DNA from: a virus
Strand: one strand, 5' to 3'
Virus record (IMG/VR): IMGVR_UViG_3300010883_000619
Location: 1-21,130 of that record
DNA length: 21,130 bases
Shown: piece by piece, positions 3,065-21,130 of the stretch
How positions within the stretch are numbered: position 1 is the first letter of the stretch
Layout of the letters: every line of letters begins with the position of its first letter
The notes under the pieces: model-generated
Told to the model about the DNA's origin: nothing
Databases searched by the model: none
Seen by the model: the letters and a program-made list of their open reading frames with translations, nothing else
Program-made: the position numbers and the translations under genes

Positions 3065-5086
3065 ATGAAGCTTCACAATATTACTCATAGTGAATGGTTT
3101 ATTAACCAAAAGCGTATACCACCAAAAGATTCAGTAGATCACAAAGCATTTTTTGATTTCCAAAAGGAACTATGTATGAACGGATGCATGATGGATGGTG
3201 TATACATAAATCCATTTTTGTATTGGCACTTAAATGTATGGCATACAGAAGTAGATACTATAGATGAGTATGGTAGGATAAATCAAAAGTATGCAAAACC
3301 TCTACTAAGAGATAATGAGTGGTTAGTAACTAATGAGATAGACAGAGCACATAAAGAAAAGAAAGGACTAGTTATACTAGGAATTAGACGTTTTGCAAAA
3401 TCTGTTATAGAAGCTAGTTACATTGGTCACGGTGCAACCTTTGATGAAAACTCACAGAACATTATAGCAGGTTTGAACGCACCTGATATAAAACTTATTA
3501 CAGATAAAATAGACAAAGGTCTAAACTTTCTTCCTAAAGAATGGAGATGGCAAAGAGTAGAAGACAATTGGAAAAACCAAGTCACCTTAGGTATAAAAAC
3601 TAAAGGTGGAACAAGAATACCATTCTCACAAATCCTTATTCGTAACTTAGATGGAGGTAACAATGAAGAAGCTATTGCAGGTACAAAACCTAGAAGGTTA
3701 ATTATTGATGAGATAGGTAAAGGTAATTTCCTACGTGGACTGCAAGCTGCAATACCAGGATTTACAACACCATTTGGTTGGGGTTGTTCTCCTATACTCA
3801 CCGGTACAGGTGGAGACATGAAAATGTTCATGGATGCAAAAAGTTTAATGTTTGATGTAGATAACTTTAACTTTCTAACATATAACAATGCAAAGGATAC
3901 AAAAAGAATCCACGGATTATTCATTTCTCATAAGTATAGAATGGAAGCAAAAGAAGACTCCACGTTGGGTTCTTTTTTGGACAAGAAAAAAACATCCTCT
4001 CTTCACGAGATACCTATGTTAGTTTCGAATGAAGAGAAAGCTACCAAAATTACAAATGAAATATTAGAAAGATTAAAGAAGGCTGGTGACAGAGTTGCCT
4101 TCTTAAAAGAAAAGATGTACTATCCTCAAGAGGTGGATGATATATTTTTAAATGAAGATACAAACATCTTTGATATAGAAGCTGCAAAGAGACAGAAGTA
4201 TAGAATCAATGAACAAGAAAAAACAGGAGTTCCTGTAATTTTATATGATGATGGAGAAGGTGTAAAACATGACTTTACAGACAAGTTACCTATTACTAAC
4301 TTTCCATTAAAGCAAACAGATCTAAAAGATGCACCTGTTGTTATATATGAATTTCCTATAGAAAATCCTCCATATGGCCTGTATGTTGCAGGAATTGATC
4401 CATATAGACAAGGTAAATCAGCATATAGTACATCATTAGGTTCTATATACATATATAAACGTATGCATGCTATAGCTGGTGAGAAGTATCAAGATATGTT
4501 TGTTGCAAGCTATTGTGCACGTCCTGAGAAGAAAGAAACATGGGATGAGCAAGCTAGGTTACTAATTAAGTATTATAATGCTAGAGCATTGTGTGAAAAC
4601 GATGAGATATCATTTATTGATTATATGATTAGTAAAGGAGATGCACACTATTTAGAAAGACAACCAGAATGGTTAAAAGAAATAGTACCAAACACTACGG
4701 TTAGACGTGACTATGGTATACACAGGTCTTCATCAAAAGTAAGAGACTTTCTACATGGATGTCTTAAGAAATATACTGAAGATGTTATACATACTGAACT
4801 TGATGATGAAGGAGAAGTGATATCATCAGTTAAAGGTATGGCTAAAATATTAGATCCTGTATTACTAGAAGAGATGATACAGTATAATGAGACTGGTAAC
4901 TTTGATAGAATTATTGCAGCTGAGTTAGCAATAGGACTAGCAATGAAGTTAGATCCGATAATGGGTAGAGTAGGAGATAAAGAAGATGCGAGACTAACGT
5001 CCCTCTTCAAAACAAATAAGAAAAACATTCTTTTTACAGAGTCAAGAAACCTCTTTGGAAGGAAGAAAAATAAACTTTTTTCATAA
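3065..5086 (+). CDS. terL: terminase large subunit (DNA-packaging ATPase/nuclease), 673 aa
   Basis: TerL is the motor that cuts and pumps phage DNA into the prohead through the portal. The ATPase half shows a Walker-A-like loop G-I-R-R-F-A-K-S (residues 106-113), a Walker B strand R-L-I-I-D-E-I (211-217, D215 and E216) and a candidate coupling motif T-G-T-G-G (246-250). The nuclease half shows the RNase-H-like acidic residues in G-I-D-P-Y (D445), L-C-E-N-D (E511) and N-F-D-R-I-I-A (D614). The order and spacing are those of a complete two-domain TerL, at a length usual for crAss-like and related phages. Ala replaces the usual Gly before the Walker A lysine. The start is 2 nt after the preceding gene, and the stop overlaps the portal start by one base (TAATG). 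Confidence 0.92.
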   Translation: MKLHNITHSEWFINQKRIPPKDSVDHKAFFDFQKELCMNGCMMDGVYINPFLYWHLNVWHTEVDTIDEYGRINQKYAKPLLRDNEWLVTNEIDRAHKEKKGLVILGIRRFAKSVIEASYIGHGATFDENSQNIIAGLNAPDIKLITDKIDKGLNFLPKEWRWQRVEDNWKNQVTLGIKTKGGTRIPFSQILIRNLDGGNNEEAIAGTKPRRLIIDEIGKGNFLRGLQAAIPGFTTPFGWGCSPILTGTGGDMKMFMDAKSLMFDVDNFNFLTYNNAKDTKRIHGLFISHKYRMEAKEDSTLGSFLDKKKTSSLHEIPMLVSNEEKATKITNEILERLKKAGDRVAFLKEKMYYPQEVDDIFLNEDTNIFDIEAAKRQKYRINEQEKTGVPVILYDDGEGVKHDFTDKLPITNFPLKQTDLKDAPVVIYEFPIENPPYGLYVAGIDPYRQGKSAYSTSLGSIYIYKRMHAIAGEKYQDMFVASYCARPEKKETWDEQARLLIKYYNARALCENDEISFIDYMISKGDAHYLERQPEWLKEIVPNTTVRRDYGIHRSSSKVRDFLHGCLKKYTEDVIHTELDDEGEVISSVKGMAKILDPVLLEEMIQYNETGNFDRIIAAELAIGLAMKLDPIMGRVGDKEDARLTSLFKTNKKNILFTESRNLFGRKKNKLFS

Positions 5087-7662
5087 TGGCAATTATAAGA
5101 TACACAAATGATTCATCTATTAAGTATGCGTACTTAAACATCTTTCCAGATCAGTTTAAAACTGCAAAGCAAAAGAAAGATGATAGTTGGGTTAAAAATA
5201 CTATGGATTACTTTGCAAATCAATCATATGCAATGTATGTAAGGAACAGAGAAACGTTTGCAAAAAACTATGATCTAATGAAAGGGATTCTTCGTAGAGA
5301 AGACTTTTATCAAGAACCTGAAGTTAGAAGTTTTACTGATCAACTAGTAAGTGATATAGATCTTCCTGCATATGTAAAAATGTATTCTATTATAACAACT
5401 CCTGTGAATGAATTAGTAGGAGAGATATCTAAACGACCAGACTCTTTTAGAGTAAAAGCATTTGATGATGAAAGTCAAGCACAAGAATTACAATTCAAAA
5501 CAGACACACTTCAGAAATATGTAATATCAAAAGTTAAAGAACAGGTAGTAGCAAAAGTTGCTATGACTGGACAAGATATAAGTGAAGAGGATATAGATAA
5601 ACTAACATTTGAACAAGTTAAAGATCAATTAGATAGCTATACTTCAGTAGCAGAGAAATGGGCTAACCATGTCCTCACTGCACAGAAAGCAGATTTTAAT
5701 ATTAAAGAAAAGTCAGAAGAAGCATTTAGAGATCTTCTTATAACTGCTAGAGAGTTTTATCATATATATGAAGACAACTCTAAACTAGGTTATAACATTG
5801 AAGTTACAAATCCTAAAAATACATGGTTCTTAACTACACCAGATAAAAAATATACATCAGATCCTACAGGAAGAAAACAAGGAGCTTATGCTGCAGGCAC
5901 AGTACAGGTGATGGAGTTATCAGAAATAATTGAAGCAGTTCCTGAATTAACTAAAGCTGAGATTGATCATTTAAGAACATCTTTACAAGACTATGGATTA
6001 ATCAATGCAAGAGAATCTAATTTAACTAATGGTGTTACACCTGGTATTGATTCTATTACATATGATACATATGATCCTTTAGTATTACAGACTCGTATGA
6101 TGATTGAGTCTGAAATGAAAGAGAATGACGATGGTTTAAGAGACTTTCTAGGATTAGCTAGTAATGTAAATGCATTTGGATATAAGTATGTTGTAATACG
6201 TTCTTATTGGGTTTCTAAAAAGAAGATAGGTAAATTAATATACATGGATGATCTAGGTAATGAGCAATCAGTACTAGTAGATGAGAACTATAAAAGTGGA
6301 ATGATGCCTACAGAACAATCACTAGAGTGGGGTTGGATCAATCAATGGTATCAAGGAATTAAAATAGGTCCGGACATCTATCATGTTAAACCTTATAAAT
6401 TATTAGATTACTGTCCAATTATTGGTACAGTGTATGAGCAAAAGAATACCGAAGCAAAATCGTTAGTAGATTTAATGAAGCCTTTCCAGGTTATATATAA
6501 TGTTTGTATGAATCAATTATATAAACTACTAGAGAAAGAAGTTGGTAAGGTTCAACTAATGTCACTAAGACATATCCCTGTTCCAAAAGATGGAGATGCA
6601 CAAGATGCTCTTGATGTATGGGAAATGGAAGCTCGTAATAGAGGTGTTGTATTTGTAGATGATAGTCCAGAGAACTTAAAAGCTCCAAGTTCATTTAATC
6701 AATTTACTGCATTAGATCTTACACGTACACAAGAAATACAATCAAGATATACACTAGCCCAACAAATGAAAATAGAATGTTGGGAATTAATAGGAATGTC
6801 TAAACAGCGTATGGGTAATGTATCTGCATCAGAAACAGCTACAGGTACAAATACAGCAATGCAACAGAGTTACTCTCAAACAGAGCCTCTATTTGTTGCA
6901 CATGAGTATGTAATGGGTCAACTATACCAAGCAATTGTAGATGCTGCACTATATACAGAAAGTTCTAAGCCACAATCTACTCTTTCATATATAACTAATG
7001 AAGGTGAATCTGCATTTGTACAAGTTAATGGTACTGATTTATCATTACGTGATATTCAAGTATTCTTAACTAACAGACCAGAAGACACTCAAATGTTTAA
7101 TGAGCTTAGACAATTATCTCAAGCTGTTATTCAAAATGGTGGTACACTTTATGATATTATTGAATTATATAGTACTAAGTCTATGAGAGAGATGAAAAAG
7201 ACTTTCAAGGATCTTAAAGATAGACAAGAACAGCAACAGCAACAGCAGATGGAGCTTCAACAGCAACAACAGCAAGCTCAACAGCAACAAGCTCAAGCAG
7301 CATTAGAGCAAGCTAAGCAGATGGCAATGGAAGAACAGGTTAATGAAGATAGACAAAATGAACTAGATAGAGTTAATAAGAAAGAAGTTGCTCTTATTAA
7401 TGCTATGGCTAAAGGTCCAGAAATAGTTGGAGCAGATTTAGACAATTCAGGATCACCTGATATAGTAGAGCTATCTAAATTAGAAGCTGAAACTAATAAA
7501 GCTAATAGAGATTACCAAGGTAAAATGGCAGAGATCCAAAGTAGAAATTCAATGGCTCAACAAAAACTACAATTAGAAAGAGATAAAATAAAATTAGCTC
7601 GTGAGAACCAAGCTAATGATCTAGCTGTAGCAAAACAAAATGCAAAAGGACGAAATAAATAA
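5086..7662 (+). CDS. portal protein, large type with Gln-rich C-terminus, 858 aa
   Basis: The portal is the dodecameric ring at one capsid vertex through which TerL pumps DNA and to which the tail attaches. Position directly after TerL, a one-base stop-start overlap, and size around 850 residues match the large portals of crAss-like phages. The body is rich in Tyr/Trp beta segments and helices without signal or membrane segments. Residues about 712-751 are a Gln-rich coiled stretch encoded by CAA/CAG repeats. Residues 784-795 read D-L-D-N-S-G-S-P-D-I-V-E, an EF-hand/dockerin-like calcium-binding loop. The end is a charged coiled coil. The C-terminal part probably forms the helical barrel or extends into the head interior. 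Identification rests on order and size more than on a single motif. Confidence 0.85.
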   Translation: MAIIRYTNDSSIKYAYLNIFPDQFKTAKQKKDDSWVKNTMDYFANQSYAMYVRNRETFAKNYDLMKGILRREDFYQEPEVRSFTDQLVSDIDLPAYVKMYSIITTPVNELVGEISKRPDSFRVKAFDDESQAQELQFKTDTLQKYVISKVKEQVVAKVAMTGQDISEEDIDKLTFEQVKDQLDSYTSVAEKWANHVLTAQKADFNIKEKSEEAFRDLLITAREFYHIYEDNSKLGYNIEVTNPKNTWFLTTPDKKYTSDPTGRKQGAYAAGTVQVMELSEIIEAVPELTKAEIDHLRTSLQDYGLINARESNLTNGVTPGIDSITYDTYDPLVLQTRMMIESEMKENDDGLRDFLGLASNVNAFGYKYVVIRSYWVSKKKIGKLIYMDDLGNEQSVLVDENYKSGMMPTEQSLEWGWINQWYQGIKIGPDIYHVKPYKLLDYCPIIGTVYEQKNTEAKSLVDLMKPFQVIYNVCMNQLYKLLEKEVGKVQLMSLRHIPVPKDGDAQDALDVWEMEARNRGVVFVDDSPENLKAPSSFNQFTALDLTRTQEIQSRYTLAQQMKIECWELIGMSKQRMGNVSASETATGTNTAMQQSYSQTEPLFVAHEYVMGQLYQAIVDAALYTESSKPQSTLSYITNEGESAFVQVNGTDLSLRDIQVFLTNRPEDTQMFNELRQLSQAVIQNGGTLYDIIELYSTKSMREMKKTFKDLKDRQEQQQQQQMELQQQQQQAQQQQAQAALEQAKQMAMEEQVNEDRQNELDRVNKKEVALINAMAKGPEIVGADLDNSGSPDIVELSKLEAETNKANRDYQGKMAEIQSRNSMAQQKLQLERDKIKLARENQANDLAVAKQNAKGRNK

Positions 7663-9125: not shown

Positions 9126-10691
9126 ATGGCAATTCAAACAATTCCAGGTTTAACTGGCTTTACTTATGCACGTGTAGCGTCTATGGATGCACGAGCTGTA
9201 GGTAAGCTGACAGATGCGAACCACCTAGAGTCCTTTCACTCTACTGAGCCTGCAGACTATGATAAAAAGATTATCAGTCTGTATACTCAATCTTCATTGT
9301 ATAGCAATGATTTTCTAGACATGATTAACAAGAGTACTCCTTATTACATTGACACAAACTCAGATGCGTGGAAGTGGAATATAGCTGTACCTTACAAATT
9401 CCCTAAAATTATTGACATTCCAAAATCTACTAAAGATATCATTGCTGGTACTGGTAAGGTTGGAATTGATGGTCAAGAGTTTGAGCTTATATTAAGTTCT
9501 AACGAGTTCTCTAAGAACGCTATCATCTCTGTAGGAACACGTCAATATGGACCACGTTTTTACGTGATAAAAGATCCACAACCATGGAACATGGGATGGA
9601 TTTACAAATTTACATTAGTAAGTGATAACCCAACAGTAGACTTCGTTAATACTACATTTTTAGCACAAGGTGTTGAATTAGAATTAGTAGATGCTGCAAT
9701 TGGAGAATTTGATCAAGACTTATTAGGTCTTCCTAGATTAGGTGAAGAAATCACTATGTTCGAATCATTAGGTTCTGCATATGGTTATGAGCACAAAATT
9801 ACGGAATGGGCTGATGATAAAATGTTAAGAGACTCTTCTGGGAAACCATTAGATATTTTAGTATATGCACCACAACAACGTAATCAACTTCCTTTAAGAA
9901 GAGAAGACGTTAAATGGGAACCGTTCATTGAGTTCTGGATGCGTAAGTCTATGTTAGAATTAAAAGTTAAACGTATGATCTGGGCTTCTCCAGGTACGGT
10001 TAAAACTAATGGATCTAAACAAGAATTAAAAAGAACTTCTGCTGGTGTATACCACAGAATGAGAAATAATGGAAACTTAGTACAGTATAACAGAGGTGAA
10101 TTCTCTGCTAACTTAATACGTGCAGTTTTCGGTGATCTATTCTATCGTAGAGTGGATGTTAAAGATCGTAGAGTTAAAATGTATACTAATGAGGCTGGAT
10201 TCGATGTATTCCAACAAGCTCTTAAAGATGATGCACTTAATTCAGGTCTTACTTTCATGGCAGATTCTGGAAACAGATACATGCAAGGTGAAGGACAAAA
10301 CATTACTTATAACTTTGCTTTCGATGCAATGGTTACGAGAGAAACAGGTCGTGTTGAATTGGTTCACTTAAAAGAACTAGATTTACCACAAACTAATTTA
10401 GAATTTGGACAAAACATGAAATCTACGCCAGTATTTATGGTGTTTGATGTTTCTCCATTATCTGATGGTGCAATGGTAAATAATATCCGTGAAGTTCGTA
10501 TGCAAGGTGCTCCTTCTATGACTTGGGGTTATATTGATGGTACTCGTTCCCACTTAGGCTTTGCGAAGTCTCAAGGAATGCAGTCTGCTAACAAATTCCC
10601 AGGATATGAGTTATGGATGAAAGATCGTTGTGATGTATTCATTGAAGACTTATCTAGAACTGTGTTAATTGAAGAAATTCCACAATTCTAA
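9126..10691 (+). CDS. major capsid protein, 521 aa
   Basis: This would be the shell-forming protein, expected to have the HK97 fold as in all tailed phages. The call rests on the order portal, scaffold, this gene, on its length of about 520 residues (crAss-like capsid proteins are near 500), on a balanced alpha/beta composition without signal or membrane segments, and on the strong structured region after it. Codon choice includes more C- and G-ending codons than in neighbours (for example cgt and cgc-type Arg codons), consistent with high expression. N-terminal residues about 1-45 could form the arm, and no obvious prohead-protease cleavage site is evident. The A-rich leader (aacaaaaaacgaataaa) lacks Shine-Dalgarno. 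Confidence 0.82.
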   Translation: MAIQTIPGLTGFTYARVASMDARAVGKLTDANHLESFHSTEPADYDKKIISLYTQSSLYSNDFLDMINKSTPYYIDTNSDAWKWNIAVPYKFPKIIDIPKSTKDIIAGTGKVGIDGQEFELILSSNEFSKNAIISVGTRQYGPRFYVIKDPQPWNMGWIYKFTLVSDNPTVDFVNTTFLAQGVELELVDAAIGEFDQDLLGLPRLGEEITMFESLGSAYGYEHKITEWADDKMLRDSSGKPLDILVYAPQQRNQLPLRREDVKWEPFIEFWMRKSMLELKVKRMIWASPGTVKTNGSKQELKRTSAGVYHRMRNNGNLVQYNRGEFSANLIRAVFGDLFYRRVDVKDRRVKMYTNEAGFDVFQQALKDDALNSGLTFMADSGNRYMQGEGQNITYNFAFDAMVTRETGRVELVHLKELDLPQTNLEFGQNMKSTPVFMVFDVSPLSDGAMVNNIREVRMQGAPSMTWGYIDGTRSHLGFAKSQGMQSANKFPGYELWMKDRCDVFIEDLSRTVLIEEIPQF

Positions 10692-12627: not shown

Positions 12628-13767
12628 ATGAGTACATTCGCGTTAACCACGTTATTCGTGGTGCCAGTAGGTCAGACAGCTCTGCCTAGCACTGGTTCGA
12701 CTCAAGACCTTACAAAAGGTCAAGTAGGATTTTACAAAAGTGATTATGCTGTAGCAACTGCTGCAAACATAGCTGCTTCTCCGTATTTTTACGTAGCACA
12801 AGGTAGAGAAAACACCTACCTTCAAGGATCTAAAAGATCTGACAAAATTAAAGGCTGCCCATCTGGGTCAGGCTGTAACTCTAACGTAACTGAGTGGTAT
12901 AAAGCTTCTGGGTGTTCCCAAGCTGCTAACCAGATTACTGACGTTACAGACTTTAAAGTAGGATGTGGTGAGATAGTCACATTAACATTACGTGCTTTTT
13001 CTTCTTACATTAATACTTTATACTTCAACGGATTTACACGTTCAGTAACTGTTAACGCTCCATGTTGTGAGTGTGGTGGTGATGTGTGTACTGATGTAGA
13101 TGTTAATGCATTAATCAATTCACTTATCGTTAAGTTAGAGCAATCTGCTCCTGGCGATAATCCAGACAACGTATCTTTCAAAAGTTTCTTTACATTTGAA
13201 AACGTTGGTGGAACAAAATTAAGAATACATGGTAAACCATTAACTAAATATGGACAACCTTGTGATGTTGCTGCATTCCCATTTGAATATGACAGAATGT
13301 ATTTCAACGCATTTATTTATGATGGACCAGCTACAACTGCTGACTTTATCGTTGCTGATGCTTGTAACATTGTTGCTACATCTTCTATAATCCAAAATGC
13401 TACTTATCCTTCTGGATTAGCTGCTGAATGGAAACAAGCAGAAATCAATTACTATAGCTACCAAGCTGGGTATTTAAAATCTCTATACAGAATGGGAGGA
13501 TACAATGAGAACTTTGAGTCTTATGTAACTGACGGAGTTGTATATGATAGCTACTATATCAGATTCAATGAATATGATAGAGGTGCATATCAATGGGGTG
13601 ATTTTATCCATCAAGATTCTATCGTAATGATAGCCGTACCTAATGCTGACACTGATGGTGGAAGTGGTATAGCTGCTGACGTAGAAGCTGTTTTAGTTGC
13701 TGCTCTTGGTGCTGTTGTTGATAATAATACTTGTATTACAACTACAACTACTACAACTGCTGCATAA
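12628..13767 (+). CDS. Cys-rich presumed virion protein ending in poly-Thr, 379 aa
   Basis: A 379-residue beta-rich protein without a standard signal peptide, though its N-terminus is hydrophobic (residues 4-14). Cysteines cluster at 77, 83, 96, 113, 146, 147, 149 and 154, including C-P-S-G-S-G-C and C-C-E-C-G-G-D-V-C, suggesting a metal site or disulfides. The C-terminal half is rich in Tyr, Phe, Asn and Gly, typical of beta-structured tail or decoration proteins. The last residues are seven Thr and two Ala, echoing the Thr-rich linkers of the tail proteins downstream. Codons are less A/T-ending than in neighbours, and a strong terminator follows, so it is probably an abundant virion component such as a tail tube, muzzle or head-decoration protein. 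I do not recognise the family. Confidence 0.7.
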   Translation: MSTFALTTLFVVPVGQTALPSTGSTQDLTKGQVGFYKSDYAVATAANIAASPYFYVAQGRENTYLQGSKRSDKIKGCPSGSGCNSNVTEWYKASGCSQAANQITDVTDFKVGCGEIVTLTLRAFSSYINTLYFNGFTRSVTVNAPCCECGGDVCTDVDVNALINSLIVKLEQSAPGDNPDNVSFKSFFTFENVGGTKLRIHGKPLTKYGQPCDVAAFPFEYDRMYFNAFIYDGPATTADFIVADACNIVATSSIIQNATYPSGLAAEWKQAEINYYSYQAGYLKSLYRMGGYNENFESYVTDGVVYDSYYIRFNEYDRGAYQWGDFIHQDSIVMIAVPNADTDGGSGIAADVEAVLVAALGAVVDNNTCITTTTTTTAA

Positions 13768-14546: not shown

Positions 14547-17500
14547 ATGTTATCACCAAAATTAACCAATTGCAAAGGATGTGCAGACATTCCTGATTTA
14601 CTTAGAAGAATAGACTGTAAATTAGCAGAGCTAGGTAACAACTTATACAACAATGTTGTATTTATGTTGAATAGACCCATAGCGGTTACTGATATATCAC
14701 AACTTTTAGTATACAAACGTGTACTAATGTTTAGATATTGTGATACACATTATGCAACTAGATGCCCAGAGATAAGTACAGAGGATATTGCTAGCAAGGT
14801 TATTCGTCTTACTGCTGGTTGTGTTTCATTATGTAATGAACCAACAGTATGTGAGATAACTACATGTGCTATTAAACCATGTCCTAATCCTACAACTACT
14901 ACTACTAGTACATCTAGTACAAGTACAACTAGTACAACCTCTACAAGTAGTACAACAACAAGTACAACAACAATTAACTGTAACTTTACTGGTGTAATTG
15001 ATTGTAGTATTACAACAACAACAACCACTACACCTCCTCCTACTACTACAACAACAACCAGTTATTTCCCAGATGCATTTGGTATACCATGTTTATGGTC
15101 TACTAATGGAGGCAATCCAGGAAATCTAGCTGTATATAACTTTGATACTAATACGGCTACTGAAGTATTAGTTCCTAATGACTTTACTACTACAGTAGGT
15201 ATTGAAAGACCTATATGTGCTACAGAAGATAAATTATGGTTAGCTAGTGTACTTGATCAAGGATCTAATTCAAATCATAATGACGATGTTGTATATATTA
15301 GAGAGTGGAATATAGATGGAACTACACCAAATGCTCCTACACTAACTTATGTAAGAGAAATAACAGTTTTAATAGGACAATACTCAGGAGCTAATCTTGG
15401 AGGTACAGCTGTGCAGGCTATGACTGCTATAAGTAATGATAGACTTATTATTGGAACAGGTAATCTAGATGGACAACCCTCAGGTACTGGTGGAAGTGGT
15501 AGTATATATGTTCAAGAATTTAATATTGCTTCTGGAGGAAATATTACAATTTCCGGAAATGATATGTCTTCTAGCTGGGCAGCTGCTGGACAACCTAATG
15601 CAGCTAAATTGAGTAATCTTACTTATACAAACTCAGGGCAACTTGTATTAGGATATAGAACAGATCTTCGTCCTGATGGATCTGGTTCAGCAGGTAATGT
15701 AGGTAACTACTTAAGAGTATTCCCTACAACTCCATCTGATCCTGACTTTTCTATAAATAATACGGCAATTCAAATTATAAAACTTCAGGAACAAGGATAT
15801 CCAGAATTTACAAATACTTATGTAGGACCAAAAGATGCACCTTTCTGGGGTGTAAATGGATTAGCACAAGTATTACAACCAGAAACTCTGAATGTATATA
15901 CTCTAGATCAGTTACCTCAGCAAACTTTTCCTGGAGGATATCAATTATCATTGACTACTAATGTAAGTAGTTCTAATGATTGGTTAAGTTCAGCTACAAA
16001 TTGTTCTAATATTGAATTTAGTATACTTGACTCTCCTGACTGTGGTCTTACTTATTTCCCTCCATTCTTTGAACTTGGTAGTCAGACTTATCTTGGACCT
16101 CAGACATTCCAATATGCTGGAATGACATGTACAGCAAGTCTATCTAATACTTTAACTTCTGTTAGGACTGGTCTACCATCTAATATTGGTATGGAGTTTT
16201 TAGGATGTAGTGGACTTGTGAAACCACAATATCCTGGGGTTGGAGTAACTAAAAGTGTTATTGTACAAGGTAATGACTTTAGTATTACAATAGATTTCCC
16301 TCAACCAGTTAATAATATTCCAATTAGAGCTGGTGTTTTAAATAGTACTACAGATGGTACAGGAGGAGATGTATACTACGTAGATACTAATGGTGGACCT
16401 GTAACACTTTCTATAAATCAAGGATGTTTTGCTCAAGTTAATGGTAACAGACTATTTGGTGGAGTAGCAAATCCTCCAGGAGAACCAGATGCATATAGCA
16501 ATGAAGGAGATGGAGAGTTTAAAGTTACTTCTACCAATAGCTTTACTTCTATGACAATATATGGTAATGCACCAACCGGTGGACCATTGTTCTTAGGATG
16601 TCCTCCAATAAATTGTGACAACATGTTCTTTATAGAACAAGGAGGTTCTTCTTGTAATGCTCCTGAAAATGCTGGACTTTGTCCAATACCACCAGTTGTT
16701 CCAATAAATCAAACTTCATTTACTAAAATGTATGTTTGGAATAAATTAACAGATGTGTGTACAGAAGTACCAACTCCAGTAGGTGAAGGATTTGCTTCTG
16801 GTGATACTGGAATAGGAGATAATATAATTGTAATGTCTTCTAACATTAACACCTCCAGTACCTTTAAAGAAGCCTTTATAAAATATACATACGATAATGT
16901 AAATGACGTTCCTGGCAACCTACAGTGGGATGGAGTACAATATGAGTTACCTACTGTCTGGAAAGATTATAACAATAATTCATTTATTCCAAATCTTGAG
17001 GTAATTGATGATCAAACAATAGGTGTAATAGTAACTACAAGTGTTGCTGCACCAGAATATAGAGAATCTAAATTCTTAGTTTGTACATTCCCTACAACTG
17101 GTACAGAAATGATAGTTGAAGAGAAATTTACTCTTTCAGCAGGACATATAGGATCTGGAGATATAGTAGTAACATATAAAGTAGATGGTGTAACACCGAA
17201 CAAAGTTCTAGTGTTAGGAGGAGTAGATGTATTTGTAAATGATAATAATTTTCTAGATAGCATACTTGCAGTTCAACAATATGACTATGATACAGGAGTT
17301 CTAGAAGTAACTACAAGAAGAGATGACTTTGGAGTTGATCCAACAATGGGTGGTGCATACTTAGCTATAGTGGATGGAGAACTTTATGCAGGAGCTAACT
17401 TGGCATGTAAGATATCTTTTACTGCTCCATATGCGTGGACTCAACTAAATGCTAATGAGAGATCATGTCCTGCTGGTGGAGCTGGTACATTACCTGGATG

Positions 17501-17630
17501 TAGAAAAAGTGATGGGTTTATTATAGATCCTAATGTAACCACTACTACAACTAGTAGCACAACAACGATAATACCATCTGGTGTAAGAACAATATTCACT
17601 AAATTTTATCCTATTGTAACTAATAATTGA
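14547..17630 (+). CDS. large modular tail protein with Thr-rich linkers, 1027 aa
   Basis: Modules in order: a Cys-rich helical N-terminal domain (residues 1-113, with paired cysteines such as C9/C12 and C103/C107), a Thr/Ser linker (116-143), a short Cys-containing island (144-154), a second Thr/Pro linker (156-171), then about 820 residues of beta-rich sequence. It ends with a third Thr/Ser linker (998-1007) and a 20-residue C-terminal tag with T-I-F-T-K-F. Two segments resemble each other: A-V-Y-N-F-D-T-N-T-A-T-E-V at 195-207 and Y-V-W-N-K-L-T-D-V-C-T-E-V at 729-741, suggesting duplicated propeller-like domains around a different middle domain (about 500-700). The N-terminal domain likely anchors to the tail and the rest is exposed, so host binding is the best guess. 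The stop overlaps the preferred next-gene leader closely (3 nt apart). Confidence 0.72.
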   Translation: MLSPKLTNCKGCADIPDLLRRIDCKLAELGNNLYNNVVFMLNRPIAVTDISQLLVYKRVLMFRYCDTHYATRCPEISTEDIASKVIRLTAGCVSLCNEPTVCEITTCAIKPCPNPTTTTTSTSSTSTTSTTSTSSTTTSTTTINCNFTGVIDCSITTTTTTTPPPTTTTTTSYFPDAFGIPCLWSTNGGNPGNLAVYNFDTNTATEVLVPNDFTTTVGIERPICATEDKLWLASVLDQGSNSNHNDDVVYIREWNIDGTTPNAPTLTYVREITVLIGQYSGANLGGTAVQAMTAISNDRLIIGTGNLDGQPSGTGGSGSIYVQEFNIASGGNITISGNDMSSSWAAAGQPNAAKLSNLTYTNSGQLVLGYRTDLRPDGSGSAGNVGNYLRVFPTTPSDPDFSINNTAIQIIKLQEQGYPEFTNTYVGPKDAPFWGVNGLAQVLQPETLNVYTLDQLPQQTFPGGYQLSLTTNVSSSNDWLSSATNCSNIEFSILDSPDCGLTYFPPFFELGSQTYLGPQTFQYAGMTCTASLSNTLTSVRTGLPSNIGMEFLGCSGLVKPQYPGVGVTKSVIVQGNDFSITIDFPQPVNNIPIRAGVLNSTTDGTGGDVYYVDTNGGPVTLSINQGCFAQVNGNRLFGGVANPPGEPDAYSNEGDGEFKVTSTNSFTSMTIYGNAPTGGPLFLGCPPINCDNMFFIEQGGSSCNAPENAGLCPIPPVVPINQTSFTKMYVWNKLTDVCTEVPTPVGEGFASGDTGIGDNIIVMSSNINTSSTFKEAFIKYTYDNVNDVPGNLQWDGVQYELPTVWKDYNNNSFIPNLEVIDDQTIGVIVTTSVAAPEYRESKFLVCTFPTTGTEMIVEEKFTLSAGHIGSGDIVVTYKVDGVTPNKVLVLGGVDVFVNDNNFLDSILAVQQYDYDTGVLEVTTRRDDFGVDPTMGGAYLAIVDGELYAGANLACKISFTAPYAWTQLNANERSCPAGGAGTLPGCRKSDGFIIDPNVTTTTTSSTTTIIPSGVRTIFTKFYPIVTNN
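14892..15059 (+). repeat. ACA/ACT-rich repeats encoding Thr/Ser linkers
   Basis: Two low-complexity tracts (14892-14975 and 15012-15059) made of ACA, ACT, AGT and ACC codons flank a short Cys-containing island. They encode the first two Thr-rich linkers of the 1027-residue tail protein. A third, shorter tract lies at 17538-17567 near the end of the same gene. Confidence 0.85.
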
Positions 17631-17632
17631 TT

Positions 17633-19966
17633 ATGAGATTAACGCAACACATATTAGATAAGATTGAAGAATTGAGATTACAATATCCCAATGCTACATC
17701 TATTGGATTTGGAAAGAAACAATCTAATGGTGTAGAAACTGGTGAGTTTGCTATTATAGTGGGAGTAAAAGAAAAGAAAGATACTTCTTTAATTCCTGCA
17801 AATGAGTTGCTTCCAGTTGAGGTTATTGTAAGTAATCAAAGCTTAAAAACAGATGTAGTAGAAGTATATGAAAACTTTGTATTAGGAACATGTTCTTCTA
17901 GTTGTGGTAACATAAATCCTGGAACAAACAATGCAGCTAATAGAGCTACTGTAAGACCTATTCAAGGAGGAACTTCCATGTCTAGTAGAAACAATAATAC
18001 TACAGTGGGAACTTTGGGAGGTATAGTACGTCATACAGATAGTGGGTGTACAGTGGGATTAACAAACAATCATGTTAGTATAAGTGATGCATTCTTTACA
18101 ACTGCTAGAGATTCAAACGGTATTCTAGAAAATGATTATGATCCAGTAAACCGAGTTTATCAAAATGGAGAACAAGGAAGTTCTACTCCTACTTCATTAA
18201 ACTTTGGAGTAAGTCTAAGATATGTTCCTATACATCCTTTAAGTACAGGATTAGTAAATCAGGTAGATGCAGCTATATTTTCTATTGATGAGAGTGCATT
18301 TTCAATATCACAGTCCTGGAATCAAGTAGGGCTAGAATCTATACTTGGAAACAACGCTCCACCTTTTGCAAGTACTACTGAACTAGATAATTTACTAGCT
18401 ACTAATCCTCGTGTTTACAGTTCTGGAAGAACAACTGGAGCAAAAGGATTTACTCCTGATTGTCCTATGACAATACATCAAACAGGTGTTACTATTAACT
18501 TAGAATATAAACTACAAGGAGTAGGTACGTTATGTCAATTTAGCAGATCTATTTCATTTATAAAACCAACTCAAGAAGAACCCAATGCTCAAAACCCTAG
18601 TTCAGTTTGTCCTAATCCTATATTTAGTGGTGACTCAGGATCTTTCTTACTAGCAGATATAAATGGAACTATCAAGATAATAGGAATATGTTATGCTGGT
18701 AGTGCGAATGCTTCAGGTGTAGCTATTATAGGTTATGCATGTAGAATAGATGATGTAGCAACACAATTAGGAATAGAACAATATGTAGATACAGCAACAA
18801 ATGCTGGAGTAATGGTAGATCCAACTACTGTTGAATATAGAACTATAGCAGGTGCGAGTGATGAAAAGTTTATTTTATGTGAAAACGAAGAATACTGGCA
18901 AGTAGGATTTACAGGTAGTTTATTAAATAACTGTGTTGCTGAAACAACTACTACTAGCACATCTACGAGCACTTCTAGTACTACAACTACAACAACTACA
19001 CCTGTACCTACTACAACTACAACAACTACCCCTGTGCCTACTACCACTACTACAAGTAGTTCTACTAGCACAAGTACCTCTACTAGTACATCAACTAGTA
19101 CCAGTACAAGCACATCAACTAGTACAAGTACAAGTACCAGTACGTCAACTAGTACCAGTACGTCTACTACTAGTACCAGCACTTCTACTAGTACAACAAC
19201 CAGCACTACTACTTTAACACCAACTACTACAACTACTACTACAACCGAAAAGATCTTTAATTTGGACTGGAGTATAGCTGGAAGTCCTCAACCGGAGTTT
19301 AGTGGTGGTACACTTATAATATTAAAAAATAGTATTGAAGTTCTTAATGAAACTATAGATTCAACAACTCCTTCTAAGAGTGGGGTGATAACATATATTA
19401 ATGGTGACTCTTTTAATTTCAAACAGGTTACTACCAATTCAAGTGGTGGTACTTTATCAATTGATCATCAGAGAAGTGGTACTCCTTCTGCAAGTATTCC
19501 TACACTTCCTGAAACTCAATTTGTAACTACTGGTAATTCGTTCCAATCAACTAGTACTGCTACTCTCGGAGCTTTTGATTCTACAGTGGCTTTTACATCG
19601 ATTTCTACTGTGGCAGTTAATGGATCAGTAACTGTAAATTATGCAGATGCCGGAAATCAGAGTTTCTATTCAATTATAACAAACCAATCTGGAACCCAGG
19701 TATTCTTAGCAGTATCTGATCCTATAGATAATGGTACTACAGCTGTAAACTTTATAGTTGGTGATCAATACGAAATAGAAACTTATTATGAAGCTACACA
19801 ACCTGGTCCTCAAAGAACTATTACTCAATCTGGATCTGGAGCAGGAATGTCTCCATTTGCTGATAGTCTAACAGGTAATGTTAACACTTTAATAGGTCCT
19901 AATACTAGTACTTTTACCCCAACGACAGATTCTTCTGCTATAATAATTAGTATAAATCAAAATTAA
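17633..19966 (+). CDS. trypsin-like serine protease fused to a Ser/Thr linker and beta-rich C-terminus, 777 aa
   Basis: The protease domain spans about residues 20-390. The catalytic triad is visible: T-N-N-H147-V, V-D212-A-A-I-F and F-S-G-D-S335-G-S, in the chymotrypsin order His, Asp, Ser, with the G-D-S-G-S nucleophile motif intact. A preceding strand pair (S-I-G-F-G-K-K ... T-G-E-F-A-I-I-V) resembles N-terminal extensions of bacterial trypsin-like peptidases. Residues 438-538 are almost entirely Thr and Ser, with two P-V-P interruptions. Residues 539-777 form a beta-rich C-terminal domain. There is no signal peptide, so it probably acts as a virion component in the tail, on other tail proteins or on host surface proteins. 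I chose ATG 17633; an in-frame TTG at 17627 overlaps the previous stop and is less likely. Confidence 0.85.
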   Translation: MRLTQHILDKIEELRLQYPNATSIGFGKKQSNGVETGEFAIIVGVKEKKDTSLIPANELLPVEVIVSNQSLKTDVVEVYENFVLGTCSSSCGNINPGTNNAANRATVRPIQGGTSMSSRNNNTTVGTLGGIVRHTDSGCTVGLTNNHVSISDAFFTTARDSNGILENDYDPVNRVYQNGEQGSSTPTSLNFGVSLRYVPIHPLSTGLVNQVDAAIFSIDESAFSISQSWNQVGLESILGNNAPPFASTTELDNLLATNPRVYSSGRTTGAKGFTPDCPMTIHQTGVTINLEYKLQGVGTLCQFSRSISFIKPTQEEPNAQNPSSVCPNPIFSGDSGSFLLADINGTIKIIGICYAGSANASGVAIIGYACRIDDVATQLGIEQYVDTATNAGVMVDPTTVEYRTIAGASDEKFILCENEEYWQVGFTGSLLNNCVAETTTTSTSTSTSSTTTTTTTPVPTTTTTTTPVPTTTTTSSSTSTSTSTSTSTSTSTSTSTSTSTSTSTSTSTSTSTTSTSTSTSTTTSTTTLTPTTTTTTTTEKIFNLDWSIAGSPQPEFSGGTLIILKNSIEVLNETIDSTTPSKSGVITYINGDSFNFKQVTTNSSGGTLSIDHQRSGTPSASIPTLPETQFVTTGNSFQSTSTATLGAFDSTVAFTSISTVAVNGSVTVNYADAGNQSFYSIITNQSGTQVFLAVSDPIDNGTTAVNFIVGDQYEIETYYEATQPGPQRTITQSGSGAGMSPFADSLTGNVNTLIGPNTSTFTPTTDSSAIIISINQN
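18944..19246 (+). repeat. long Ser/Thr-encoding imperfect repeat
   Basis: About 300 bp of degenerate ACT/ACA/AGT/ACC codons with recurrent words such as ACTAGTACAAGTAC and ACTAGTACCAGTACG. It starts with two copies of a Thr7-Pro-Val-Pro unit (about residues 451-470) and continues as alternating Ser-Thr. Synonymous codons vary, which suggests selection on the protein rather than fresh expansion, although slippage or recombination is possible. Confidence 0.85.
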
Positions 19967-19986: not shown

Positions 19987-21130
19987 ATGTCAACACAAAA
20001 TTGCTCAAATTGTTACAACGGCTGTACTGAAATTACTTCAGACAAGTGCGTTAAATATACAGGAGTAGATGTACCTATATTAGGAATAAAGAATGGAGAT
20101 TCTTTATCTTTTGTAGAACAAGCTCTTATTACTTTTTTAGGTGCTGCTTTAGATGGCACAGGAATACTTCCTGTAGTTCCTGCATCAGATATATGTCCTG
20201 TAGTACAGGCTAATCTAGATGATTGTAATCCTCTATCCTTAAATAATTATCTTGTAGGTATAATAAAAACTATTTGTATATTAAATGAACAACTAGAAAA
20301 TATACAAGGTGGTGCACCTAATGGTGCATATACTTTAGAATGTGTTACAGGAGTTCAAAATCCAAATAGTACATCTGATGTACTACAGCAAACTATAGTA
20401 AAGTTATGTGAAGTTGAGCAATCACTAAACACTTTTATTACAGATGTTACAAATAACTATGTACAAATTGTTGACATAAATACATACATAGAAAACTATT
20501 TTAATACTAATCCTGAGCAACAATTACTTAGTAATAGAATGGTTCCAGGTTCTGCTCAAGCTTACTTTGGAGCATTAACACCGTTTGATGCATCAGGTGC
20601 AGGTATAGGTGTATGGGACAGAATATTTCTATGTAACGGAAACAATGGTACACCTGATTTAAGAGGAAGAGTAATAGTTACTGTAAACTCTGCTGAAATG
20701 GGTGGAGGAACATTAGATAATGCTGTTAATCCTTCTTTAGTTGGAAACCCTGCTTATAATATAAATTCTCAAACAGGAACTAATCAAGTTACTTTATCTA
20801 TACAACAAATGCCAGGGCACGGTCACACAACAAATACAGGTACAAATACAACTGGAACATCAAACCCTGCAACTCATAAACACCAAATGTTAGTTAAACC
20901 AGGGGTGATGGGCCAACCTGGAAATACTGATTATTCTAATCCTGGAGGAAAGGGAGAAGGTGGTAGAAGAACAATGGATGCTGGTGTTGCTGGTTCTGGT
21001 AGTTATAACGCAGCATATACAGAATTAGAAGGACAACACAATCATGCAATAAGTATTGATCAAACTGGTGGAGGATTATCACACGATAATTACCAACCTT
21101 CATACTCAGCATACTATATTATTTATTTAC
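19987..21130 (+). CDS. tail fibre with phage tail-collar domain (partial, runs off right edge)
   Basis: 381 codons are visible from ATG 19987 and the frame is still open at the window end, probably only a few residues before its stop. The N-terminus is Cys-rich (C6, C9, C13, C21) followed by a helical region to about residue 180, likely the attachment module. From residue 186 the pattern M-V-P-G-S-A-Q-A-Y-F-G, then W-D-R-I-F-L-C-N-G and P-D-L-R-G-R is characteristic of phage tail-collar domains in short tail fibres. Three H-x-H motifs (278-280, 297-299, 351-353) recall the metal-binding histidines that stabilise trimeric fibre tips such as T4 gp12 and gp37. Such proteins contact the host surface. 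The gene follows the protease gene by 20 nt of A/T-rich leader. Confidence 0.8.
   Translation, partial: MSTQNCSNCYNGCTEITSDKCVKYTGVDVPILGIKNGDSLSFVEQALITFLGAALDGTGILPVVPASDICPVVQANLDDCNPLSLNNYLVGIIKTICILNEQLENIQGGAPNGAYTLECVTGVQNPNSTSDVLQQTIVKLCEVEQSLNTFITDVTNNYVQIVDINTYIENYFNTNPEQQLLSNRMVPGSAQAYFGALTPFDASGAGIGVWDRIFLCNGNNGTPDLRGRVIVTVNSAEMGGGTLDNAVNPSLVGNPAYNINSQTGTNQVTLSIQQMPGHGHTTNTGTNTTGTSNPATHKHQMLVKPGVMGQPGNTDYSNPGGKGEGGRRTMDAGVAGSGSYNAAYTELEGQHNHAISIDQTGGGLSHDNYQPSYSAYYIIYL

Follow-up and report, generated by a model that had tools for sequence, protein, structure and literature searches.

What does a serine protease do among the fibre genes of a phage? The question is raised by a stretch of viral DNA of 21,130 nucleotides (nt), positions 1 to 21,130 of the IMG/VR record IMGVR_UViG_3300010883_000619 (hereafter the window), in which a predicted protease is encoded directly downstream of a large fibre-like protein, its partner. 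An earlier note, made from the letters alone, described a trypsin-like protease built on a mucin-like stalk into a probable tail appendage. The predicted fold of the enzyme resembles that of the plant protein NARROW LEAF 1 (NAL1), and in relatives the protein encoded just upstream nearly always ends in a short peptide tag. On balance, and with modest confidence, we propose that the protease and the upstream tagged fibre form a two-gene tail module, in which the tag would dock the protease and the protease would clip the host surface.

His147, Asp212 and Ser335, the last within GDSGS, occupy exactly the positions that the earlier note had given for a catalytic triad. The triad is invariant in an alignment of 29 relatives, and conservation was counted over 100 distinct protease sequences of at least 350 amino acids (aa), tandem copies included (n = 99 for His and Asp, as the sequence from locus L015 lacks the N-terminal part; n = 100 for Ser). 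Of the cysteines, C87 and C326 each recur in 99 of the 100 relatives, with a gap in the one other row. Six residues before the catalytic Ser stands Pro in 97/100 distinct relatives, Ala in 2 and Thr in 1; we take this position, matched by its place alone and not by residue-level superposition, to be that of Asp189 at the base of the S1 pocket of trypsin. Because of this Pro, the window protease probably lacks trypsin-type specificity. At L040:1160-2463 the protease frame is split into two open reading frames (ORFs) of 123 and 219 aa.

Residues 1-432 were modelled with AlphaFold2 (mean predicted local distance difference test, pLDDT, 82.5; predicted template modelling score, pTM, 0.88), with weak stretches at residues 92-99, 161-167, 405-409 and 424-432. 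Foldseek ranks 1-34 for this model were all NAL1 chains (best E 7.8e-17), and VIA aligned residues 1-396 with NAL1 8pmi_B (92-458) at Z 30.1 (335 aligned residues, root-mean-square deviation 3.4, 16% identity). Bacterial S1 proteases came next, at Z 16-18 over about residues 108-386. The structural match to NAL1, together with the conservation across relatives, rules out a triad arisen by chance. Sequence profiles gave lower scores: the window protease reached 11.8 and 15 bits against Pfam Nal1_C (cut-off 26.1), its sole Pfam match, and the relative L079 reached 24 bits against NAL1_N (cut-off 27). Profile matches to NAL1 in the PDB were weak (E 0.037 at best), with the His region aligning weakly, and a weak hidden Markov model (HMM) alignment joined positions 26-150 of the protease profile to NAL1 29-150. 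The HMM phrog_20754, annotated as protease, matched the window protein at 6.3e-14 (residues 5-359) and the relative L117 at 5.6e-20, and NCBIfam gave nothing useful for the window proteins. Since the Pfam models score below their gathering cut-offs, we call the protein NAL1-like rather than a family member: the model predicts the two-domain NAL1-like fold, outside membership in PF25608/PF25819. The comparison with chymotrypsin-fold peptidases that the earlier note had proposed as a check thus returned a chymotrypsin fold of the NAL1 kind, so that its term trypsin-like holds for the fold and probably not for the specificity.

Relatives came from a first scan (16 loci), a profile scan (53 loci) and scans with more divergent queries (the best 80 of 186 and the best 80 of 215 relatives), with flanks of at most 10 kb; many later-scan loci share contigs with earlier ones. 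In INPHARED, tblastn at E 0.01 found no match for the window, L055 or second L031 proteases, for the partner or for the C-terminal tip. Two scans of genome contigs gave 265 and 73 pattern matches, none confirmed, which speaks only for relatives within the method's reach in those genomes.

The stalk on the protease, a key feature in the earlier note, is real in the window, where the linker spans about 100 residues and residues 431-545 hold 63 Thr and 30 Ser among 115. As a defining feature of the group it did not hold up: counting near-identical variants, 77 of the 103 distinct proteases stop at or near the short C-terminal region, less than 60 residues past the profile end, and 26 reach at least 60 residues beyond it. 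Linker and tip are optional, and the C-terminal tag of the upstream protein is the more constant feature. The tip itself matches seven non-protease ORFs of relatives (E < 5e-8, some near-identical), five of which show the N-terminal region MLSP-LTNC; L017 matches as well but was left out, being only a piece of a protease ORF. In the 18 distinct cases from loci holding the N-terminal region of the window partner, the tip sits on the protease in 10, on a fibre in 3, on neither in 5 and on both in 0, too few cases to establish a rule that it is carried by one or the other and never by both.

The partner was modelled as two beta-propellers around a beta-sandwich (pLDDT 83.8, pTM 0.67). For its first propeller the 80alpha phage baseplate protein, endosialidase NF and other propellers score alike, at Z about 12.5, and for the partner model Foldseek places generic propeller proteins on top; these values indicate a predicted propeller, not a function. 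By eye, a tag was seen at the end of the upstream gene in 52/52 loci with upstream sequence, from a first set of 54 loci, many of them near-identical. Examples are GVRTIFTKFYPIVTNN in the window, KTIWTWFESEINQ and NTIFTYFQGVTP, mostly behind a Thr-rich linker, and the L055 partner terminates in HTIYMKFGTKNC. Polar and hydrophobic residues alternate in the tag, with a conserved aromatic. A narrow tag motif matched 51 of 891 ORFs in 56 loci, every one directly upstream of a protease. A wider motif, T[IVLM][FYW]xx[FYLW], was present upstream of 29/32 protease clusters compared with 3/722 distinct background C-termini, and, with more loci, of 31/35 clusters compared with 3/801 (2 of 37 clusters have no upstream ORF, hence n = 35). 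For these counts a cluster was scored positive once the motif occurred in the upstream gene of at least one member, that gene being defined as the longest ORF ending at most 150 nt from the nearest one; proteases shorter than 350 aa (4/270) were excluded. One of the three background matches, L158, is a true tagged partner and the other two were judged spurious ORFs. The 3/801 figure rules out that the tag is a trait of all proteins with Thr linkers. Among 88 distinct upstream C-termini, 80 have the end of the motif 3-9 residues ahead of the stop, and in 25/31 clusters a Ser/Thr/Pro-rich stretch comes before the motif. One upstream protein, L117:4531-6591, ends in two tandem tags, TNTVFAKYDVV and VKTVFVKYDVQ.

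The pairing also appears when searched from the partner's side. A scan with the partner domain gave 65 loci, 62 of which have tag and protease adjoining; the exceptions are L158, whose contig ends after the protease start, L162, where the position falls off the contig, and L172, which has a protease without a tag and shares one contig with L081. When 35 partners were compared by BLAST after trimming 35 residues from the C-terminus, they separated into 7 groups without links between them, the largest counting 26 by single linkage; motif-bearing partners are spread over 6 of them, and the seventh is L232, with a tag-like end. The L055 partner, missed by the partner-domain scan, is joined to the large group by single linkage.

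A natural swap bears on which protein the tag belongs with. At L200, a fibre-type protein ending in tag A (NNTIYIKYNTKSC) is followed by a protease of 612 aa and then by one of 642 aa, 38% identical to each other; L198, on the contig of L079, has the same order. The C-terminus of the first L200 protease is itself a tag-like peptide, B (GPFTSFVTFESYNC), preceded by a Pro/Thr linker. In L244 and L257, the fibre-type protein ends directly in B (GPFTAFVSFDSYNC) and is followed by an orthologue of the second L200 protease. Comparison of L200 with L244 gives 76% identity for the fibres (about 300 columns), 73% for the second proteases and 81% for B (over 16 residues). Because the bearers of B differ while the second proteases are orthologues, B goes, as read from these sequences, with the protease downstream, whichever protein carries it. 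B fails the wide motif and was excluded from the tag counts.

Does the module belong to the tail? The setting described by the earlier note is found in the window: a large fibre-like protein, with its propeller model, lies upstream and a protein of a tail-fibre family (phrog_8469) downstream. In relatives with the window-like gene order, capsid genes are followed by a large fibre, the protease, a collar-type fibre, Thr-rich proteins, virion structural genes and the muzzle gene; in L021 and others, protease and partner stand together elsewhere in the region. A muzzle gene lies within the retrieved flanks of 14/37 protease clusters. The window itself shows no muzzle protein, and L021 has one (PF25731, 117 bits). 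At L064:3390-9998 (same contig: L222:2-5998) the tagged module forms the C-terminal part of a 2202-aa protein, whose C-terminal extension comprises Thr linkers, a propeller-type domain and the tag. Blocks 1-731 and 846-1283 of this protein are 58.5% and 59.9% identical to an L021 protein with a hit to PF25731, the muzzle family of crassviruses, at 9.3e-34. In L231 too, the protein ahead of a protease (1-2985) is muzzle-like and bears the motif at its end. The crAss001 muzzle is described as a hexamer at the tail tip (PMC10172136), and the muzzle-like fusion in L064 is the best pointer to a tail location, one drawn from relatives. Of the earlier proposal of a tail-appendage protease, an apparently intact chymotrypsin-fold protease and a genetic tie to tail-type fibres, with one muzzle-like fusion, are borne out, and the location is suggested by gene content. 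Also at L231 (2996-7281), three protease ORFs (450, 455 and 430 aa) are clustered, and a 100-aa motif-bearing ORF precedes the third.

From the fold, the intact triad, the swap, the one muzzle-like fusion and the fact that tag and protease, in the loci examined, occur almost exclusively together, we infer physical docking, presence in the virion, proteolytic activity and a substrate as follows. The adjacent protease would recognise the C-terminal tag of the upstream fibre, and the tag, usually behind a flexible Ser/Thr/Pro-rich linker, would dock the protease onto that fibre. A flexible stalk would then present the protease at the tail of the virion; in the window phage the protease would add a second stalk of its own and a fibre-type tip. 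The most likely substrates would be host-surface proteins, cut during adsorption. The L200 order could be read as a series of plugs and sockets: fibre, tag A, protease 1, tag-like B, protease 2. As a role for the tag, docking of the protease on the fibre ranks first, above maturation of neighbours and attack on the host, because proteases that bear stalks and tips need a place in the virion and because L200 reads as a chain.

Several observations weigh against docking or limit the pairing on which it is built. The wide motif was composed after part of the data had been viewed. In a held-out test the narrow motif was found in 9 of 22 clusters (70% identity) without a first-set member, and 3 of those 9 (L131, L150 and L180) came from the partner-domain scan; in three newly added clusters the wide motif was found in two, both from L231. 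Four of the 35 clusters lack it, namely L077/L081, L069, L232 and the second protease of L200/L079, although the upstream ends in the L232 and L200 protease-2 clusters look tag-like by eye. The second L031 protease is preceded by a protease without a tag. Tags were sought within the retrieved flanks only. At E 0.01 Pfam gave nothing for the L064 protein, whose muzzle identity comes from phrog_37948, common to L064 and L021, and from BLAST to L021, on one contig. Finally, the tag could equally be a substrate.

This last point is the core of the strongest alternative, maturation, in which the protease cuts the tag or linker of the preceding gene's product during assembly and need not remain in the virion. 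Serine proteases bind extended strands, and the alternating tag with its conserved aromatic suits such a substrate; the Pro before the catalytic Ser would be compatible with a non-basic S1 site, and cognate pairing fits substrate recognition as well as docking. However, the extensions of the 26 longer proteases, many with linkers and fibre-type tips, would be odd on an enzyme to be discarded, and a first L200 protease ending in B ahead of the second looks chain-like. We judge maturation rather unlikely. The same pairing data would also suit a latch: lodged in the active site as a pseudo-substrate, the tag would hold the protease inactive until the phage meets its host. The position of the motif so close to the stop and the invariant triad agree with it, but the data fit binding in the active site and binding elsewhere alike, and we regard the latch as improbable.

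Two further explanations fare worse. That the enzyme is an ordinary head-maturation protease which chances to sit in a fibre operon draws on the main texts of the crassvirus structure paper (PMC10172136) and of a Crassvirales review, with 0 uses of protease or peptidase and hence no assignment of the function there, but the gene stays beside tagged fibres even where the gene order is different, it occurs in tandem copies, some of its products carry fibre tips and its best fold match is NAL1 (the absence of prohead folds from the match list excludes nothing), and this account seems very improbable to us. Equally far-fetched is that the tag is no recognition peptide and serves coding or translational coupling where the two genes meet. 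Its codons do lie near the protease start (median gap 5 nt in 237 tagged pairs), but a coding effect is ruled out by synonymous codon variation and by gaps of -41 to 18 nt (the start taken at the first ATG) with the amino acids kept.

Docking of the protease on a tagged fibre can be set beside several known systems. Plant NAL1 has the same two-domain fold, an N-terminal domain and a chymotrypsin fold, whereas the phage protein lies in a phage gene context and adds a linker, a tip and a tagged partner; maize NAL1a is described as breaking down a TOPLESS-like corepressor (PMC12915138). Among viruses, the putative serine protease of Aeropyrum coil-shaped virus was matched by L117 in tblastn (4e-4, HE681887.1). 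This 326-aa protein matches the phage protease profile and has neither linker nor tip, and the 54-aa gene upstream of it does not end in a tag; in that gene (L258:3295-3459) the string HTIFMSF lies more than 30 residues from the end and was counted as coincidence. In a viral model library, the uncharacterised protein A0A7S9XDX3 of Virus NIOZ-UU157 is 43% identical over 450 columns.

Phage tail enzymes are known mainly as sugar-cutting depolymerases: enzyme-bearing tail appendages mostly cut polysaccharides, with the enzyme covalently part of the spike. Depolymerase tailspikes and endosialidase likewise combine an enzyme with propellers in a tail-type module, but the window protease is encoded by a gene of its own and goes with a C-terminal tag on another protein. 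Phage prohead proteases are likewise serine proteases encoded in the structural gene region and are assigned to other superfamilies (PMC7824862), whereas the window enzyme has a predicted chymotrypsin fold and is paired with fibres. Both the fold and tails with enzymes on them have precedents. The open-licence literature searched (titles and abstract starts among the matches listed) gave no description of a tail module in which a protease is matched to C-terminal tags on tail-type proteins.

The features of the window are collected in the table. With terminase, portal and a crAss-type capsid protein all present, the gene content places the window in a relative of the crAss-like phages; tblastn of the capsid protein against INPHARED at E 1e-5 found a single match, Leptolyngbya phage Lbo-JY46 (25% identity). 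Other genes near the module include a 379-aa structural-region protein (window 12628-13767) ending in a Thr run (CITTTTTTTAA) without a tag. Proteins near the module at L031:7508-8302, L021:2517-5594 and L055:5780-9916 contain putative FISUMP-like domains, and fibre domains occur with differing N-terminal regions. At L021:13557-14798, a match to phrog_704 (DNA repair exonuclease, 4.3e-52) lies between the Thr-rich fibre genes and the structural genes ahead of the muzzle.

Table. Features of the 21,130-nt window, with coordinates and supporting evidence.
Feature	Position	Strand	Evidence
Terminase large subunit	3065..5086	+	phrog_6681 4.2e-83
Portal protein	5086..7662	+	phrog_6547 3.1e-95; P22_portal 7.4e-11
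crAss-type major capsid protein	9126..10691	+	PF23898 Crass_capsid 9e-31, 107 bits vs cut-off 27
Partner gene, 1027 aa: N-terminal region, Thr linkers, two beta-propellers, beta-sandwich, tag	14547..17630	+	ORF, model
First beta-propeller of partner (model residues 1-307)	15084..16004	+	VIA Z 12.5 to 80alpha baseplate protein 6v8i_AG, model 19-307
Second beta-propeller of partner (model residues 509-806)	16608..17501	+	VIA Z 12.2 to kelch domain (5yq4), 511-803
C-terminal tag of partner, GVRTIFTKFYPIVTNN	17580..17627	+	tag motif comparison
NAL1-like serine protease gene with Ser/Thr linker and C-terminal tip, 777 aa	17633..19966	+	ORF; ATG at 17633, stop at 19964-19966
N-terminal domain, residues 1-105	17633..17947	+	structural alignment with NAL1 N-terminal part; weak HMM alignment; pLDDT 85-95 (residues 1-80)
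Chymotrypsin-fold protease domain, residues ~108-386	17954..18790	+	VIA Z 17.6 to S. griseus protease B (3sgb_E) over 110-384
Catalytic His147 (TNNHV)	18071..18073	+	kept in 99/99 distinct relatives
Catalytic Asp212 (QVDAAI)	18266..18268	+	kept in 99/99 distinct relatives
Catalytic Ser335 in GDSGS	18635..18637	+	kept in 100/100 distinct relatives
Conserved protease C-terminal region, residues 387-435, motif around YWQVGFT	18791..18937	+	alignment and lengths of relatives; low pLDDT ~400-432
Ser/Thr-rich linker, residues 439-538	18947..19246	+	sequence; found in part of relatives only
C-terminal tip, residues 540-777	19250..19963	+	recurs at end of fibre-type proteins of relatives
Downstream tail-fibre family protein, cut by window end	19987..21129	+	phrog_8469 tail fiber 9.6e-18; Pfam Gp10_C 0.018, below cut-off

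A wider generalisation, which we put forward more tentatively than the two-gene module, is that of plug-and-socket tails: tags on fibre, muzzle-like and protease proteins would be matched one-to-one to NAL1-like proteases and form chains of stalk, protease and tip, and many uncultured phages would meet their hosts with tethered proteases. The recognition claim is directly testable with few proteins through the L200/L244 pair. If true, a tag-borne tail protease would be a new phage route against host protein surfaces, many uncultured phages, crAss-like and other, would have a testable function for genes so far uncharacterised, and their tags and proteases would make up a natural collection of peptide tag and enzyme pairs.

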